Of a DNA stretch of 31,034 nucleotides, positions 16,858 to 24,954 are shown one piece after another (position 1 is the stretch's first letter; the number at the start of each line of letters is the position of its first letter). The DNA comes from a virus: IMG/VR virus record IMGVR_UViG_3300009430_000005, positions 1 through 31,034 of that record; one strand, given 5' to 3'. The notes under the pieces were generated by a model. It was given only the letters and a program-made list of their open reading frames with translations, did not search any database and had not been told where the DNA came from. The translations under genes were made by a program, and so were the position numbers.

Positions 16858-18183
16858 TTAAGCCGACATACGTTGGCGTATCAAATTCATGTTCTTTTTA
16901 ACGATATTCAAAATGCGATCGTGATATTTTGAAGTCTTGTTGCATACGGCTCTCGATTGGATGATCTCAAATGTTTTAAGCGAAACTTCGATCGTCTCAA
17001 GCCTATTGCCTTCAGCATCTCTAGCTGATAGTATAAGACAGTTTGTAACTCCGTAATACCGATTACTGAACACGCAATGGTGCATTGCTTTTGCCTCAAG
17101 GTAAAATTGCGTGATGGACTCAAGCGGATGTATAGTGATATCACCCTCTTTGATTTCGATTCCGAAGAATTTCATCTTTTCACGATAGAATTTCATTATA
17201 TCTTCTTTTTTTCTGATAGCTGCTTTTACTGCAGCCACTCGATCACGCTCAACTCGTAGTCTAGCTTCGATCTTTTGCTTCTTCTTCATCAACTTGTCAT
17301 GCTCTTTATTTAGGTCCTTAGGACAAACGTAATGAGCATTTCGCAAATCTTTATCAAAATAGGAAAGCAGATCAATGTAATCCTCCCAAATGCTCGCATC
17401 TTTGATTATGTAGCCATTGCGGTTGCAGATATTGAAAGATGGTTTATACTTGATTTGATAAGATCCTTGTTTCGTAAGATATTGAAGCATTGAAATTTGC
17501 TTCGTTTTAAGGCATAACTCATAATCATTACTTCCTTGCAATAATCTCTTTATTAGTCTACCAGGATTACATCCGTGTAAACTACTCTTAAGCCCGTATT
17601 TTCGCAATATTGGAATCAGATTAGGATTAGGGTGCAAAACTCCGTGAATCGAATAGCTATCTCCGTGATAATAAGAAGAACCGTACTCATTCTTAATACT
17701 TAAAGGTTCACTGTGTATCCATCCGCAAGAACCCATATTCATAGGCTTAGCCATTATTGTGCGCTTTCCATCTTCACTGATCCACTCTTGAACCACTTCC
17801 GAAAAGAAGTAATGAAGATAAGCATCTTCCTTGCGAGCAACCCTCATGCAATACACATGACGTAATACTTGATAACCTCCGCATGTGGTGGCAACAGTCA
17901 TGTAGTTCACCTCTTCATTCTTTTTCTTACGGCTAACTTTTACCTCTAGCTTGCTGTGGCAATATGGGCACACGGTTGTATCTCCTAATACTGTAACAGA
18001 TAATTCGCTGTTATCTGTATTTATCCACGTATGAGCGCAATCTGAGCACCAAAGTTCATCTTTACATTTGAATGCTTCATGAGAAAAGACGTGAGTCTTT
18101 GCCCATTCTTCTTGCTTGGATAATGGAGGCAGCTTACTACTTAATTCAGCTACCTCTCTTTCTCTTTTATTGCGTGGCTTCAT
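16858..18183 (-). CDS. PcfJ-like protein
   Basis: A 441-residue protein whose C-terminal third carries the PcfJ motif: SITQFYLEAKAMHHCVFSNR, YYGVTNCLILSARD and ETIEVSLKTFEIIQSRAVCN. The N-terminal part has a zinc-like pattern of Cys pairs (CKDELWCSDC, then CPYC). PcfJ was named from the conjugative plasmid pCF10, but homologues are common in phages and mobile elements. It lies 3 genes from a PcfK-like gene, its usual partner. The exact activity is not established. A central Lys/Arg-rich helix (about 295-345) may bind nucleic acid. Confidence 0.85.
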   Translation of the reverse strand: MKPRNKREREVAELSSKLPPLSKQEEWAKTHVFSHEAFKCKDELWCSDCAHTWINTDNSELSVTVLGDTTVCPYCHSKLEVKVSRKKKNEEVNYMTVATTCGGYQVLRHVYCMRVARKEDAYLHYFFSEVVQEWISEDGKRTIMAKPMNMGSCGWIHSEPLSIKNEYGSSYYHGDSYSIHGVLHPNPNLIPILRKYGLKSSLHGCNPGRLIKRLLQGSNDYELCLKTKQISMLQYLTKQGSYQIKYKPSFNICNRNGYIIKDASIWEDYIDLLSYFDKDLRNAHYVCPKDLNKEHDKLMKKKQKIEARLRVERDRVAAVKAAIRKKEDIMKFYREKMKFFGIEIKEGDITIHPLESITQFYLEAKAMHHCVFSNRYYGVTNCLILSARDAEGNRLETIEVSLKTFEIIQSRAVCNKTSKYHDRILNIVKKNMNLIRQRMSA

Positions 18184-18879: not shown

Positions 18880-19323
18880 TTAAAATTCGAATAACGATGG
18901 TTGAACTTCTTCTTGCTGTGCTGCTTTCTCTCTCTTCTTCTCGAGCTTCTTTTTGCGCTCTTCCTCTAGCCTCTTTTGCTCGATTGCTTCGTAAGTACGC
19001 ATAGCTCTTTCCTTAGCAGCAGCTTTTTCTTCTTCTGTTAGATCAACTTTAGCGGCAGGGGCGGAAGTAGATACACGTGCATTACTAACGACCTTAACCT
19101 TTATATCGTCCTCATCATAATAGTGCACAGCTAATCCGTACACCTCTTCATCCGTCATAGCAACCGCATTTCCGCGCTTCTTAGCCTCGCTTAAAATGTA
19201 ATTGCAGCATTCATCGAGACTCTTGTTTTCTTTCGCGTAAGTCTTAGCGAATAGCTCATCATTTGATGCTCTATCGTCAAGGTATGACTTGATAGAGTTA
19301 ATAAAAGAATTGTTATTACTCAT
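18880..19323 (-). CDS. PcfK-like protein
   Basis: A 147-residue protein of the PcfK family. The N-terminal helical domain (FINSIKSYLDDRASNDELFA, SLDECCNYILSEAKKRG) leads to EEVYGLAVHYYDEDDIKVK, followed by a Lys/Glu-rich tail (about 95-140) ending in PSLFEF. The final QPSLFEF resembles a sliding-clamp binding motif (QxxLFxF) and could tether the protein to the beta clamp; that is inference from a short motif. Its ATG overlaps the stop of a tiny membrane peptide (ATGA). Confidence 0.8.
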   Translation of the reverse strand: MSNNNSFINSIKSYLDDRASNDELFAKTYAKENKSLDECCNYILSEAKKRGNAVAMTDEEVYGLAVHYYDEDDIKVKVVSNARVSTSAPAAKVDLTEEEKAAAKERAMRTYEAIEQKRLEEERKKKLEKKREKAAQQEEVQPSLFEF

Positions 19324-20803: not shown

Positions 20804-20866
20804 TTATTTTTTGTAAAAAATCACTTTTCCATCTGGAGTTGCTGTAGCAACCTTTATGTATGTCAT
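20804..20866 (-). CDS. Possible 20-residue peptide
   Basis: A minimal frame (MTYIKVATATPDGKVIFYKK) whose ATG overlaps the NinG-like stop as ATGA and which ends 5 bases before the next ATG region. It may be a real micropeptide or simply a coupling cistron that carries ribosomes to the replication gene. Too short for a firm call. Confidence 0.3.
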   Translation of the reverse strand: MTYIKVATATPDGKVIFYKK

Positions 20867-21333
20867 AATTGTTTTTCTTTTTTAAGGTTATCTATCTGCT
20901 GCTGGTAGTACTTGATAAGTTCTTCTAGCTCAAATCTGGTCCATTTTTTAAATTGCGAAGCTTTCCATTCTAGCTTATCGACTCTCATTTTACCTATCTT
21001 AGCAATTAAATTAGCTCTGTATCCAATTAGGTGATCAGCAGAAAAACGGTTACACGAATGGCACTCTGCATGGCAATTATCTTCATCATACCTAACACTC
21101 ATGTGCTTTCTAGAATGAAAATGTCCACAATCAAATTGATCAAACGTTTTAAATCTCCCGCACGAAATACATCTAATCATTCCATTAGTCATTGTATCTC
21201 TAAGCCTAATATATAGGCTAAAAACGGTATCTAATTTCTTTTTAAGATCCGTCTGTTTTTTTACTGTCACTCCATCCTTTTCGAAAAGTGGTATTTTCTT
21301 TTCTTTCTTCTTTCTTTTTATATAGTATGACAT
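20863..21333 (-). CDS. NinG/Rap-like recombination protein
   Basis: A 156-residue protein with the NinG zinc signature: CISC (55-58), CGHFHSR (69-75), then CHAECHSC (87-94) followed by NRFSADHLIGYRANL. In lambda, NinG (Rap) is a Holliday-junction nuclease that acts with phage recombination functions. I chose the ATG at 21333 (MSYYIKRKKK); the TTG upstream lies in the terminator. Gene neighbours with annealing and exonuclease functions support a recombination role. Confidence 0.85.
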   Translation of the reverse strand: MSYYIKRKKKEKKIPLFEKDGVTVKKQTDLKKKLDTVFSLYIRLRDTMTNGMIRCISCGRFKTFDQFDCGHFHSRKHMSVRYDEDNCHAECHSCNRFSADHLIGYRANLIAKIGKMRVDKLEWKASQFKKWTRFELEELIKYYQQQIDNLKKEKQL

Positions 21334-21350
21334 TTTATTAGGTTTAAAAA

Positions 21351-21368
21351 AGGGCAAATTAATGCCCT
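21351..21368 (-). terminator. Intrinsic terminator after DUF4494 gene
   Basis: AGGGCA (21351-21356) pairs with TGCCCT (21363-21368) around AATTAA. On the minus strand the stem is followed by TTTTTT. It lies between the DUF4494 stop (21373) and the NinG ATG (21333), so expression of the replication genes beyond depends on read-through. Confidence 0.75.
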
Positions 21369-21372
21369 GGTA

Positions 21373-21975
21373 TTATTCTTCTTTCGGTGTAACTTTGGTG
21401 TCTTTGCCTGTCTTATCTATTATAACCTGCTTCCCTCCTATATTCATGACAGTTTTACAGCCATTAGGAAGCGATTGTAGAAAGTTGCGAACAATAGGAG
21501 CATTAGCCTTATCGTTAATTACATCCTCTGAGGATTCTGCAATATACGGATACACATCCACTAATGCAGTTTCTGCTATCGAACCTATTTGGTAGTCGGC
21601 CATTGTACCTTTCATTCCTTCATCCAACTTCTTAACAGCGTCACGAAGGTCTGCTGCCTGAACAAGTACTTGTGTAGATGTTTTCTTTTCAGCTCCGCTT
21701 TTCTCATCTAACGTGATGAAGATCAGTTTACATTTAAACCAACGATCGGCAGCATCCTCTTCACTAGAAAACAATTCGCTGTAATTTGCGCGTTTAATGT
21801 CTGATACTGTAAATTCACCAGAGATAAAAGGAGTCATTTCTTCGATGATGCGTGCTTCTGCTTCTGTGAAGCTTAGAGCATCCACTAAATAAGGTTCTGT
21901 TACCTTCTTTTGCATTCCGTTCTCCATTACTTTCTCGTAACGGATTTTGCATTCAAACCATGTGTGCATTGACAT
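21373..21975 (-). CDS. DUF4494 family protein
   Basis: A 200-residue protein beginning MSMHTWFECKIRYEKVMENG, then VTEPYLVDALSFTEAEARII, FKCKLIFITLDEKSGAEKKT and QVLVQAADLRDAVKKLDEGM: the conserved blocks of DUF4494, found in Bacteroidetes phages and genomes. No activity known. The ATG at 21975 was chosen because the upstream extension is Lys/Gln rich and overlaps the preceding small gene. The long Asp/Lys-rich tail (about 150-200) is family-typical. Confidence 0.8.
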   Translation of the reverse strand: MSMHTWFECKIRYEKVMENGMQKKVTEPYLVDALSFTEAEARIIEEMTPFISGEFTVSDIKRANYSELFSSEEDAADRWFKCKLIFITLDEKSGAEKKTSTQVLVQAADLRDAVKKLDEGMKGTMADYQIGSIAETALVDVYPYIAESSEDVINDKANAPIVRNFLQSLPNGCKTVMNIGGKQVIIDKTGKDTKVTPKEE

Positions 21976-21986
21976 AATTGTTATAT

Positions 21987-22142
21987 TTACTTTGTTCTTA
22001 ATTTCTTTTTTAACTTTTTGCTGAGATTTCTGCATTGCCTAGCCTTATCTAATTCGCAAGGCTTCTTGCAATACTTGTCAATCAATTCTGCACTCTTATC
22101 AAGGAGCCGAATAAGGCTGTGTATATCTGTATTGCATATCAT
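21987..22142 (-). CDS. Small basic protein (51 aa)
   Basis: The ATG overlaps the TGA of the FtsK-nuclease gene (ATGA). The product starts MICNTDIHSLIRLLDKSAEL and ends in a very basic helix (LSKKLKKKLRTK) with three Cys residues before it. Probably nucleic-acid binding; function unknown. A longer reading from 22223 overlaps the large upstream gene and is rejected. Confidence 0.5.
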   Translation of the reverse strand: MICNTDIHSLIRLLDKSAELIDKYCKKPCELDKARQCRNLSKKLKKKLRTK

Positions 22143-24145
22143 ATTTGCTTTATATAAAATCCTTGAAATCTTACTAAATCTAAATATTCCGGTGATCTCA
22201 TCAGTCCATCTCCCATTCCGCACAGGGATTCGGCTCCAGATTCATCTATCACAACTTTAGAATCTATTTCTTTTGGAACCCTAAAGCATATTTGCACCGG
22301 AAAGTTAACTTTAGCATCACCCGTTATTACTTTAGTGGAAGCTCTTTGCGTGGCTGCAACTATTCTATATCCAAGGGAACGCCCTTTTTGAAGTAGCATT
22401 TTAAGATTTTCTTCTAACGTCTTTTCTCCATTGAGTTGCTTAGATGTTTTGGCACTAGATACAGCGTCTGCAAACTCATCAAAAACTATCAGTTTCTTTC
22501 TTTTTAAACCGCCTTTTCTTGCGGAAATCTGCATCTCAGATACTAGTTCTCTCATTACGTATTCTATTTCTTCAATTTCGTTATATACCTTTGCACCTTG
22601 CAACCCCACAAATTCGTACTTAGGATCAAATATGACTATATCTTTAATACCGGCTTTAATTGCGTATTGGATAGTGGAAAGTATACATACGGATTTGCCG
22701 GAACCCGTAGCTCCACATATAAGCATATGTGGCGTGGAATGGTTATCCATATCCCAATGCACACAATGTTTGTAATTATCTAAGCCGATTGGTATTTTAC
22801 ACCCTTTAAGATATTTGGGATCATACAATAGATCTTCCGTTCTTTTTTTTGCCGATTCTATCGGCAGATAACTCTTTCCTTCGTAAACGGTTAGGTTATT
22901 TCCGATACGGACAGAATTGACATTAAGTGCATTGGCAATATCTAACCTGTATTTATAAATATTAGATATTGAAACTCCAGCACTAATCTCTAGCAAGTAA
23001 GTGTCAGAAGAATATCCGGAAATCTCATGTGCCACATTAGTAATGATGCCAAATGCACGCAATACGTGCTCTATTTTTTCTTTGTTGTCCATGTTTTTGT
23101 TAGTGAAATCGTACTCAATGAAGTTTTGAGCACTTTGTTTGAATTTTATTATTACATTAGGGTTAACAGATACTATAGAGGAATCTTTTATTTTTTTATG
23201 CCTTTTCCTTATAAGGTCTTTTTTTGATTCATCTATATTAAAATCATCTACATCAGAAATAAGCGTCTTGCACCAAAAATCGTAGAGTTCGGCTCTATCT
23301 ACATAATTATCTGTATCATTAATCATGTAGATATAGTCCGGATCAGATACGGCCTCTAACATTTTCTTAAGCGGCTCGTAAAGTAAAGCTTCATATAATT
23401 TCCTATTCGAGTCGTTTATTTCAACTACGATCTTATGTAGTTGCTCTGATCCATCTTTGTTTTTGGATGATTTATTCTCGACAAACCATACTTCATTAAC
23501 TTTTCTGTTATATTTAGACTCAAAAAGGTTTACGTATGTTATGGCTTGCTTACCAATGACAAATGCAGCTTCTTCTTCATCAGTATATGACGATTTTGTT
23601 TTGTGATCAATGATCACAACTTTATCATCTTTAGTTTCTATTACAAGATCTATAACTCCATTACATGGTAGAGGTATGTCCACCCCGTTAATGGTAAGCC
23701 AAGATGTTATTTTACATTCAACGCCTATTATATTTCTTATCTCTTCAATGTATTTTTCTTTTTCATTGTAGAAATTACTAATAAGAATATTAGATAGCTT
23801 GATAGCTTTAATTTTGCATTCTTCTATTGTTGGTGTGGTTTTTTGCACTTTCCAATCACACACAGCTACTTCATCTATATATTGGAATGCAATGTTTTGC
23901 AGATCTATAATATCTATATTTTTTTTGATATTATTGAAATAAAATCTTAATGCTTCATGGTAGGCGTTTCCAGAAATAGAGGTTGCTGATCTTTTACCTT
24001 TTTCGTTGTATATTTCTTCTTTTTCGAAGACTTTCTCATTTCGTGAAAACGTTGACACTTTAGAAAAACTCCAAGAACTTATAAGAAAATTACTTAAAAG
24101 TTCTTCAATTTCTTCTGGAGAATAAAGCTCGTAAGTACTACTCAT
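22139..24145 (-). CDS. RecB-like PD-(D/E)XK nuclease fused to an FtsK-type DNA motor
   Basis: A 668-residue fusion. Residues about 20-270 carry RecB/Cas4-family nuclease motifs: His 63 (GNAYHEAL), Asp 166 (GVIDLV), Asp 180-x-Lys 182 (VVIIDHKT) and the QxxxY motif at Gln 200/Tyr 204. Residues about 360-430 resemble the FtsK beta region (YLLEISAGVSISNIYKYRLD). Walker A is GATGSGKS (478-485), Walker B is LIVFDEFAD (552-560), and AATQR follows at 597-601. The first part would degrade or trim DNA; the second would translocate along it. It overlaps the annealing-like gene by 4 bp, so it is probably the exonuclease partner of a two-gene recombination system. All catalytic residues appear intact. Confidence 0.85.
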   Translation of the reverse strand: MSSTYELYSPEEIEELLSNFLISSWSFSKVSTFSRNEKVFEKEEIYNEKGKRSATSISGNAYHEALRFYFNNIKKNIDIIDLQNIAFQYIDEVAVCDWKVQKTTPTIEECKIKAIKLSNILISNFYNEKEKYIEEIRNIIGVECKITSWLTINGVDIPLPCNGVIDLVIETKDDKVVIIDHKTKSSYTDEEEAAFVIGKQAITYVNLFESKYNRKVNEVWFVENKSSKNKDGSEQLHKIVVEINDSNRKLYEALLYEPLKKMLEAVSDPDYIYMINDTDNYVDRAELYDFWCKTLISDVDDFNIDESKKDLIRKRHKKIKDSSIVSVNPNVIIKFKQSAQNFIEYDFTNKNMDNKEKIEHVLRAFGIITNVAHEISGYSSDTYLLEISAGVSISNIYKYRLDIANALNVNSVRIGNNLTVYEGKSYLPIESAKKRTEDLLYDPKYLKGCKIPIGLDNYKHCVHWDMDNHSTPHMLICGATGSGKSVCILSTIQYAIKAGIKDIVIFDPKYEFVGLQGAKVYNEIEEIEYVMRELVSEMQISARKGGLKRKKLIVFDEFADAVSSAKTSKQLNGEKTLEENLKMLLQKGRSLGYRIVAATQRASTKVITGDAKVNFPVQICFRVPKEIDSKVVIDESGAESLCGMGDGLMRSPEYLDLVRFQGFYIKQI

Positions 24146-24954
24146 GGCAAATCGATTTTATTATTTTTACTTTTAATGACTGTTTTTTTTCGATCTACAG
24201 AATCCTTCTTTTTTTCAGATGCAGTAGATGATGTCAAGTCACTAACTGTTGTATCTTTATCTCTAAGAGATTGTAATATACCGCACATAATATATATGTG
24301 TTCAGCATTAATTTGGCTATTGGACTGCTTACCAATGATCTTAAGTATAGATTGCTCATCTATATTGTAATCATTCGCAAATGCAGTTAATATGGCATCA
24401 CGCTTATTAATTAGCTTTGCATGGTCGGTCAAATCTCCTGTGATAAGCTGCTTTGCAGCATTAATTACGCTGTCAATAATGGGACGTGGAATAACAGCAA
24501 AAACTGAATTTCTGTAAGCTATTGCGTTGGATGCATTTCCGGTAGTAGTAATTATATCATCACTATATCTATTGCCTCTGTAGTCAACAATAGGCATTCT
24601 CACCTCAAAAGCAGATGCAACATTAGCTTCTAAATCCCAGCATGTGCCACGACTGATAATCTGTTTATCAGTAATTCGTACAACCTTAGCATCTGTTCTC
24701 ATATTACCCCAATTGCTAACTATTATCTTAGCAAGATGGACAGATGGACCGCTAATATATTTCCCGCTTTTAACAAGCGCATAACTGCAACTCCTTGCGA
24801 CATCTTCATTCATCGTTGCCATCGTAATAGAGTTATTAATAGATCTAGTTATATCTCTTGGATATTTTTTAGCTGTAGATACCTGGGCATCTATATTTGC
24901 ACCTTCTATTATATCTTGAGCATTTACCTCAAGTATTTCATATTTATCACTCAT
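24142..24954 (-). CDS. Putative single-strand annealing protein
   Basis: A 270-residue protein of a phage family characterised by MNEDVARSCSYALVKSGKYI, SGPSVHLAKIIVSNWGNMRT and YSDDIITTTGNASNAIAYRN. Such proteins sit beside phage exonucleases, and I take it to be an annealing recombinase of the RecT/Erf functional class; I cannot name the family with certainty. The ATG at 24954 is preferred over a TTG 24 bases upstream. The C-terminal 40 residues are basic and disordered. The 4-bp overlap with the nuclease-motor gene suggests they work together. Confidence 0.6.
   Translation of the reverse strand: MSDKYEILEVNAQDIIEGANIDAQVSTAKKYPRDITRSINNSITMATMNEDVARSCSYALVKSGKYISGPSVHLAKIIVSNWGNMRTDAKVVRITDKQIISRGTCWDLEANVASAFEVRMPIVDYRGNRYSDDIITTTGNASNAIAYRNSVFAVIPRPIIDSVINAAKQLITGDLTDHAKLINKRDAILTAFANDYNIDEQSILKIIGKQSNSQINAEHIYIMCGILQSLRDKDTTVSDLTSSTASEKKKDSVDRKKTVIKSKNNKIDLP

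Follow-up and report, generated by a model that had tools for sequence, protein, structure and literature searches.

A nuclease–motor fusion encoded directly after a predicted annealer

The stretch of DNA analysed here (the window; 31,034 nucleotides, positions 1 to 31,034 of IMG/VR record IMGVR_UViG_3300009430_000005) carries genes for a CI-like repressor, tape measure, capsid, portal and terminase, and therefore represents a temperate tailed phage. On its minus strand, a predicted annealer gene (24142–24954, ATG start, with TTG 24978 as an alternative start) comes first and is followed by a gene (22139–24145) for a single 668-residue polypeptide in which a RecB-type PD-(D/E)XK nuclease is joined to an FtsK alpha/beta motor. 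The two genes are translationally coupled, with the annealer stop and the fusion start overlapping as ATGA (24142–24145, minus strand). Next come, also on the minus strand, genes for a DUF4494 protein (21373–22035), an accessory downstream neighbour, and for a NinG/Rap Holliday-junction endonuclease (20863–21357; PF05766, E 1.6e-29; phrog_5034) that belongs to the same recombination cluster, and then one for a DnaC-like loader. The early region of the phage also encodes PcfJ-like (16858–18183) and PcfK-like (18880–19323) proteins; these names usually denote components of conjugative elements.

Pfam matches on the fusion, all above gathering scores, were PDDEXK_1 at residues 24–245 (E 3.9e-8), FtsK_alpha at 348–430 (3.5e-7) and FtsK_SpoIIIE at 456–539 (2.4e-8). 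A sequence-only reading of the window had described RecB/Cas4 motifs and an FtsK motor in the same frame, and both were borne out with their numbering exact. In the nuclease domain (residues 1–300, 23246–24145, minus strand), these are His63 (about 23957–23959), Asp166 (about 23650), Asp180-x-Lys182 (23600–23608) and Gln200-x3-Tyr204 (23534–23548); in the motor (residues 350–668, 22142–23098, minus strand), Walker A spans residues 478–485 (GATGSGKS, 22691–22714) and Walker B residues 552–560 (..FDEFAD), of which residues 552–557 (LIVFDE) lie at 22475–22492.

An AlphaFold2 model of the fusion from 39 sequences had a mean pLDDT of 87.5. The earlier reading depended on residues 1–300 folding as a PD-(D/E)XK enzyme, and they are modelled with that fold: residues 12–294 matched the AdnA nuclease domain (9np6, Z 16.7), Cas4-like ACE1 was among the Foldseek matches, and the fold is accompanied by the H..D..DxK..QxxxY motifs typical of RecB-type nucleases. 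The four-cysteine Fe-S set of Cas4/AddB is absent, merely two partly conserved cysteine columns (110 and 161) being found, and the Pfam matches, PDDEXK_1 and FtsK, do not place the protein in the YqaJ, lambda Exo or RecE families. In a sequence search of solved structures, the nuclease profile had no match. In the motor half, residues 351–668 superposed on the E. coli FtsK motor (2ius) with Z 32.9 (305 residues at 2.6 Å) and on HerA with Z about 20, with the conserved Walker A and B residues of an FtsK/SpoIIIE alpha/beta motor. Nothing follows the beta domain in the protein, and neither the KOPS-reading gamma domain nor the N-terminal membrane (4TM) domain of FtsK gave a Pfam match at E ≤ 1. 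With a pTM of 0.50 and residues 324–347 poorly predicted, the model is no guide to how the two halves are placed relative to each other.

In some viruses DNA is packaged by FtsK/HerA motors, and the motor region here matches phage FtsK/SpoIIIE-like families in PHROGs such as phrog_1358. The motor might thus serve packaging, segregation or branch migration, with the nuclease trimming ends and neither having to do with annealing. We regard this as very improbable, for the window itself encodes a terminase large subunit and a portal, and the slot and partner evidence described below favours recombination.

The fusion is a conserved family of Bacteroidota phages and prophages

Scans of viral and genome contigs yielded 103 distinct full-length members, at 43–63% identity in their best segments (the window itself excluded). 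Both active sites are essentially invariant across these homologues: Asp166, Asp180, Lys182, Gln200, Gly478, Lys484 and Glu557 are kept in 103/103, His63 and Tyr204 in 102/103, and Asp556 in 101/103. Where hosts are named, almost all members come from Bacteroidota prophages or phages (Dysgonomonas, Chitinophaga, Prevotella, Muribaculaceae, Flavobacterium, Tenacibaculum, Chryseobacterium and Pedobacter), and one is from Puniceicoccaceae. In the latter (L076), Asp stands in place of His63 and the match is reported to contain an in-frame TGA; this member may be decaying or diverged. Another member (L188:3784-6684) carries an in-frame intein with a homing-endonuclease-like region exactly inside Walker A (GATG/CLSAD...VHN/SGKS); the Walker A of an essential ATPase is a typical intein target.

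It had been recognised from the sequence that two halves normally encoded apart, and joined here in isolation, would weaken the idea of a functional fusion. Joining turned out to be the rule, as separate profiles for each half identified 185 ORFs with both. An isolated fusion or a frameshift artefact is ruled out by these 185 ORFs. No natural split was found in the fetched loci, in which a lone nuclease relative occurred only at a contig end and the disrupted fusion ORFs were contig-end truncations and one frameshift (L038/L184); these loci were mostly sampled with patterns of the fused protein, which a distant split form could escape. In 395 Bacteroidota genomes, the nuclease profile detected just the fused copy and two weak partial matches, and no split form. 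The fusion is rare, being present in 1/395 of these genomes, namely the query genome; the nuclease domain had no match among 50,697 deposited phage records, and no record of known phages and plasmids covered 80% of the fusion.

The fusion takes the position of the YqaJ exonuclease

Exonuclease and annealer genes are adjacent in SynExo systems, and so they are here: an annealer-slot ORF lies directly upstream of the fusion in 96/103 loci, usually with a 4-bp overlap (ATGA), 33 pairs lacking this overlap. No non-annealer neighbour is universal, the commonest next one being DUF4494 (23/103 fusion loci). In one fusion locus (L164:4001-6118), no annealer could be recognised in the roughly 4 kb upstream; this locus has an SSB-like gene of its own whose product ends in NDLPF.

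Relatives of the window annealer and of the RecT and Sak4 partners were fetched, and those in loci lacking the fusion were checked downstream. A YqaJ exonuclease was encoded within 150 nt in 31/44, 47/59 and 17/47 of these loci, respectively, with one representative assigned by Pfam (PF09588, E 2.5e-19) and the others by clustering with it. YqaJ holds the slot where the fusion is missing, and the fusion therefore replaces the usual phage exonuclease.

Unrelated annealers are exchanged beside the fusion

The window annealer was assigned in PHROGs to phrog_3657 (E 1.1e-40), a family listed as of unknown function; it matched no Pfam family, and its profile had no meaningful sequence match among solved structures. 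Its structural model (mean pLDDT 80.4) ranked human RAD52 first (Z 7.9), followed by Sak of phage 80a (6.6) and Mgm101 (6.5), and gave Z 5.5 with Red-beta, all Z scores being below 8 and without a sequence match. We predict from this model that phrog_3657 is a single-strand annealing family with a Rad52 fold. The neighbour had earlier been called annealing-like, which agrees with RAD52, Sak and Mgm101 heading this structural ranking and with its location in the annealer slot in all comparisons; phrog_3657 thereby gains a predicted function as an annealer.

When the 96 adjacent upstream proteins were clustered with their last 40 residues cut off, nine sequence clusters emerged: phrog_3657, which includes the window annealer (32 members); RecT with Bet-like (16); Sak4-like (15); a second RecT-like cluster (11); an unnamed family (10); Erf (6); Rad52 (4); and two singletons. 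Comparison of slot occupants with annealer families gave matches to RecT (E 3.7e-44), Erf (2e-18), Rad52 (7e-7), Sak4-like and RecT/Bet-like families. Profile comparison between the annealer families revealed no convincing sequence link, and of three weak inter-family local alignments two fall in or beside the tail region discussed below. Judged by sequence, at least seven mutually unrelated annealer types occupy the slot beside the fusion. Mapped on the fusion tree, several branches of which are weakly supported, the annealer cluster changes at least 32 times (about 32), compared to about 56 with shuffled labels. Members of the unnamed family (alignment A5; L047, L150, L168, L171, L174, L180, L182 and others) share a conserved GNQFNI...Y.TKEG pattern, and no scanned member matched a Pfam family; this is probably an undescribed annealer.

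Annealers paired with the fusion share a short C-terminal tail

The window annealer ends in SVDRKKTVIKSKNNKIDLP-COOH (24145–24201, minus strand), which we propose to be a docking tag. The penultimate residue is Leu or Met in 95/96 adjacent annealers and 74/96 end in [LM]P-COOH, the others mostly in LL, LM, LK or LA. In most partners of the phrog_3657, both RecT-type and unnamed families, the [LM]P follows a Lys-rich stretch that resembles KKxx[LM][KR], whereas in Sak4, Erf and Rad52 partners the terminal [LM]P mostly occurs without this stretch. For relatives in six families (phrog_3657, RecT, Sak4, the unnamed family, Erf and the second RecT-like), [LM]P was found in 36/45 proteins encoded beside the fusion and in 0/379 encoded without it, the latter including 46 loci in which the sequence downstream ends too soon to rule out a fusion farther along. 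With phrog_3657, RecT and Sak4 alone, the corresponding counts were 28/34 and 0/181 (Fisher p 1e-29, kinship not accounted for). Other genes in fusion loci encode this ending in 6/1183 cases, two of the six being annealers with another gene inserted between them and the fusion.

Because ATGA in many pairs forces the last annealer codon to end in A, and upstream Lys/Asn-rich codons could favour initiation, the tail might be thought a by-product of the overlap or of initiation signals for the downstream gene. We give this next to no chance. The [LM]P ending occurs in 0/125 other ATGA-overlapping genes of fusion loci, yet in 19/33 annealer–fusion pairs without this overlap, and its codons vary (CCA, CCG, CCC or CCT for Pro and all six for Leu), so that neither overlap nor initiation signals can explain it. 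Moreover, the tail persists where another gene is inserted before the fusion (KMEMP in L156, PPQMP in L172 and SPTLM in L067).

A second explanation is that the target of the tail is a host protein, with mimicry of the SSB tip DDLPF as one possible means, and that the fusion merely co-occurs with the tail. Endings such as IDLP and NEMP do resemble the SSB tip minus Phe, one RecT ends in NNLPFDLPS (L040/L189), and SSB-like proteins in some fusion loci end in DDLPF. Binding to a host protein is nonetheless unlikely, given that the terminal Phe of SSB is missing from the tails and that none of the 379 fusion-less relatives is tailed, those paired with YqaJ included, although they would encounter comparable host proteins. 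We infer from these sequence patterns that the tail is a convergent C-terminal docking tag which would load any annealer onto the motor–nuclease. Covariation of the last tail residue with fusion columns gave, before correction for the tree, suggestive columns at 45, 99, 222 and 312–320; the independent pairs available for comparison numbered only 8.

A proposed self-propelled exonuclease with a tail-docked annealer

We consider it probable that the fusion provides the exonuclease in a two-gene, SynExo-type phage recombination system, and that it is self-propelled and has its annealer docked through the tail. The architecture of the fusion, its conservation, the exonuclease slot, the coupling, the exchange of annealers and the tail association were all observed, and support this. 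According to this model, the fusion would assemble into a hexamer or ring whose FtsK-type motor moves double-stranded DNA past the RecB-type nuclease domains of the same protein. These would degrade the DNA from its end to expose a single strand, and the annealer, translated just before the fusion, would coat and pair the strand that survives. The short C-terminal tail, [Leu/Met]-Pro (sometimes Leu-Leu, -Met, -Lys or -Ala) and usually preceded by a Lys-rich stretch, would hold the annealer on the machine where DNA exits, with the fusion as the putative receptor. As docking would need the tail alone, unrelated annealers that carry it would be exchangeable. That the protein feeds single strands to its neighbour had been suggested from sequence; the context (YqaJ slot, coupling and fusion-specific tail) supports this well, with translocation and nuclease activity standing as predicted properties. 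The earlier reading had noted neither the exchange of annealer families nor their common tail. Since HerA–NurA, the closest analogue known to work, degrades both strands in T. kodakarensis (PMC12977600), survival of a single strand is not guaranteed, and strand choice is the weakest step of the model.

We further lean, with less assurance, towards the fusion being a plug-in platform, in which a docking site reads the C-terminal [LM]P tag and any tagged annealer becomes a partner. In the same reading, and held with equal reserve, seven or more families unrelated to one another (RecT, Bet-like, Erf, Rad52, Sak4 and new families among them) would have gained the tag convergently, as a record of exchange.

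The other role suggested from sequence, cutting of foreign DNA, did not gain support, as PADLOC returned generic motor and nuclease matches only. More broadly, the fusion could degrade host or competing DNA, or act in defence or counter-defence as HerA–nuclease systems do, with the annealer incidental. Bacterial HerA-type motors with nucleases constitute anti-phage systems (PMC11291478), the archaeal cleavage of both strands cited above would suit such a role, and the motor is weakly similar to the PADLOC entries HerA, SspH and mad8. This role is quite unlikely in view of the constant pairing with annealers of many families, the occupation of the YqaJ exonuclease position, the restriction of the tail to annealers beside the fusion, and the location of the gene in a phage replication and recombination cluster with NinG and a DnaC-like loader.

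The recombination system that we favour resembles lambda Red (lambda exonuclease and Red-beta), RecE/RecT and YqaJ/RecT in that the genes for exonuclease and annealer lie side by side and occupy the same slot; in lambda, the C-terminus of the annealer is reported to bind the exonuclease (PMC8303780). It differs from all three in that its exonuclease is a RecB-type nuclease joined to an ATP-driven FtsK motor, and in that the docking element is apparently a short tail common to unrelated annealers rather than a folded domain. HerA–NurA likewise couples an FtsK/HerA-superfamily ring translocase to a nuclease acting on DNA ends, but does so with separate genes and a NurA nuclease, whereas the fusion is one polypeptide with a PD-(D/E)XK nuclease and an FtsK-type motor, occurs in phages, and comes with a dedicated annealer. 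It lacks the separately encoded, NurA-fold nuclease that would make it a HerA–NurA system. With AddAB, AdnAB and RecBCD it shares a RecB-family nuclease domain tethered to an end-resection motor, which in those enzymes is an SF1 helicase and here a predicted FtsK-family double-stranded DNA ring translocase, with no four-cysteine Fe-S pattern. Unrelated SSAP families of Firmicutes also have a C-terminal element in common, an HTH-like folded domain with homology to the Red-beta CTD (PMC8093625), in contrast to the tail that we describe, which is short and linear and goes with a single nuclease partner.

In the open-access literature, we found no description of the motor–nuclease fusion; the exonuclease–annealer pair is already known, and neither a family of motorised exonucleases nor the convergent tail was found described there. 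If correct, our model would provide the first phage exonuclease–annealer pair driven by a ring motor that we could find, and a simple rule for the compatibility of annealers with an exonuclease, a known obstacle in moving recombination systems between bacteria; double-strand recombination that relies on an exonuclease partner works poorly between species (PMC8093625). Genome engineering in Bacteroidota could then profit from a tag that is a few residues long and can be transferred.

Other recurring tails were observed in annealers from loci lacking the fusion (L240, L241 and L271, as well as L517, L525, L611–L613 and L618), with endings such as ELPLN, GELPL and KLPLA, or KKQQSLL and KSLL, and these may mark docking to other exonucleases.
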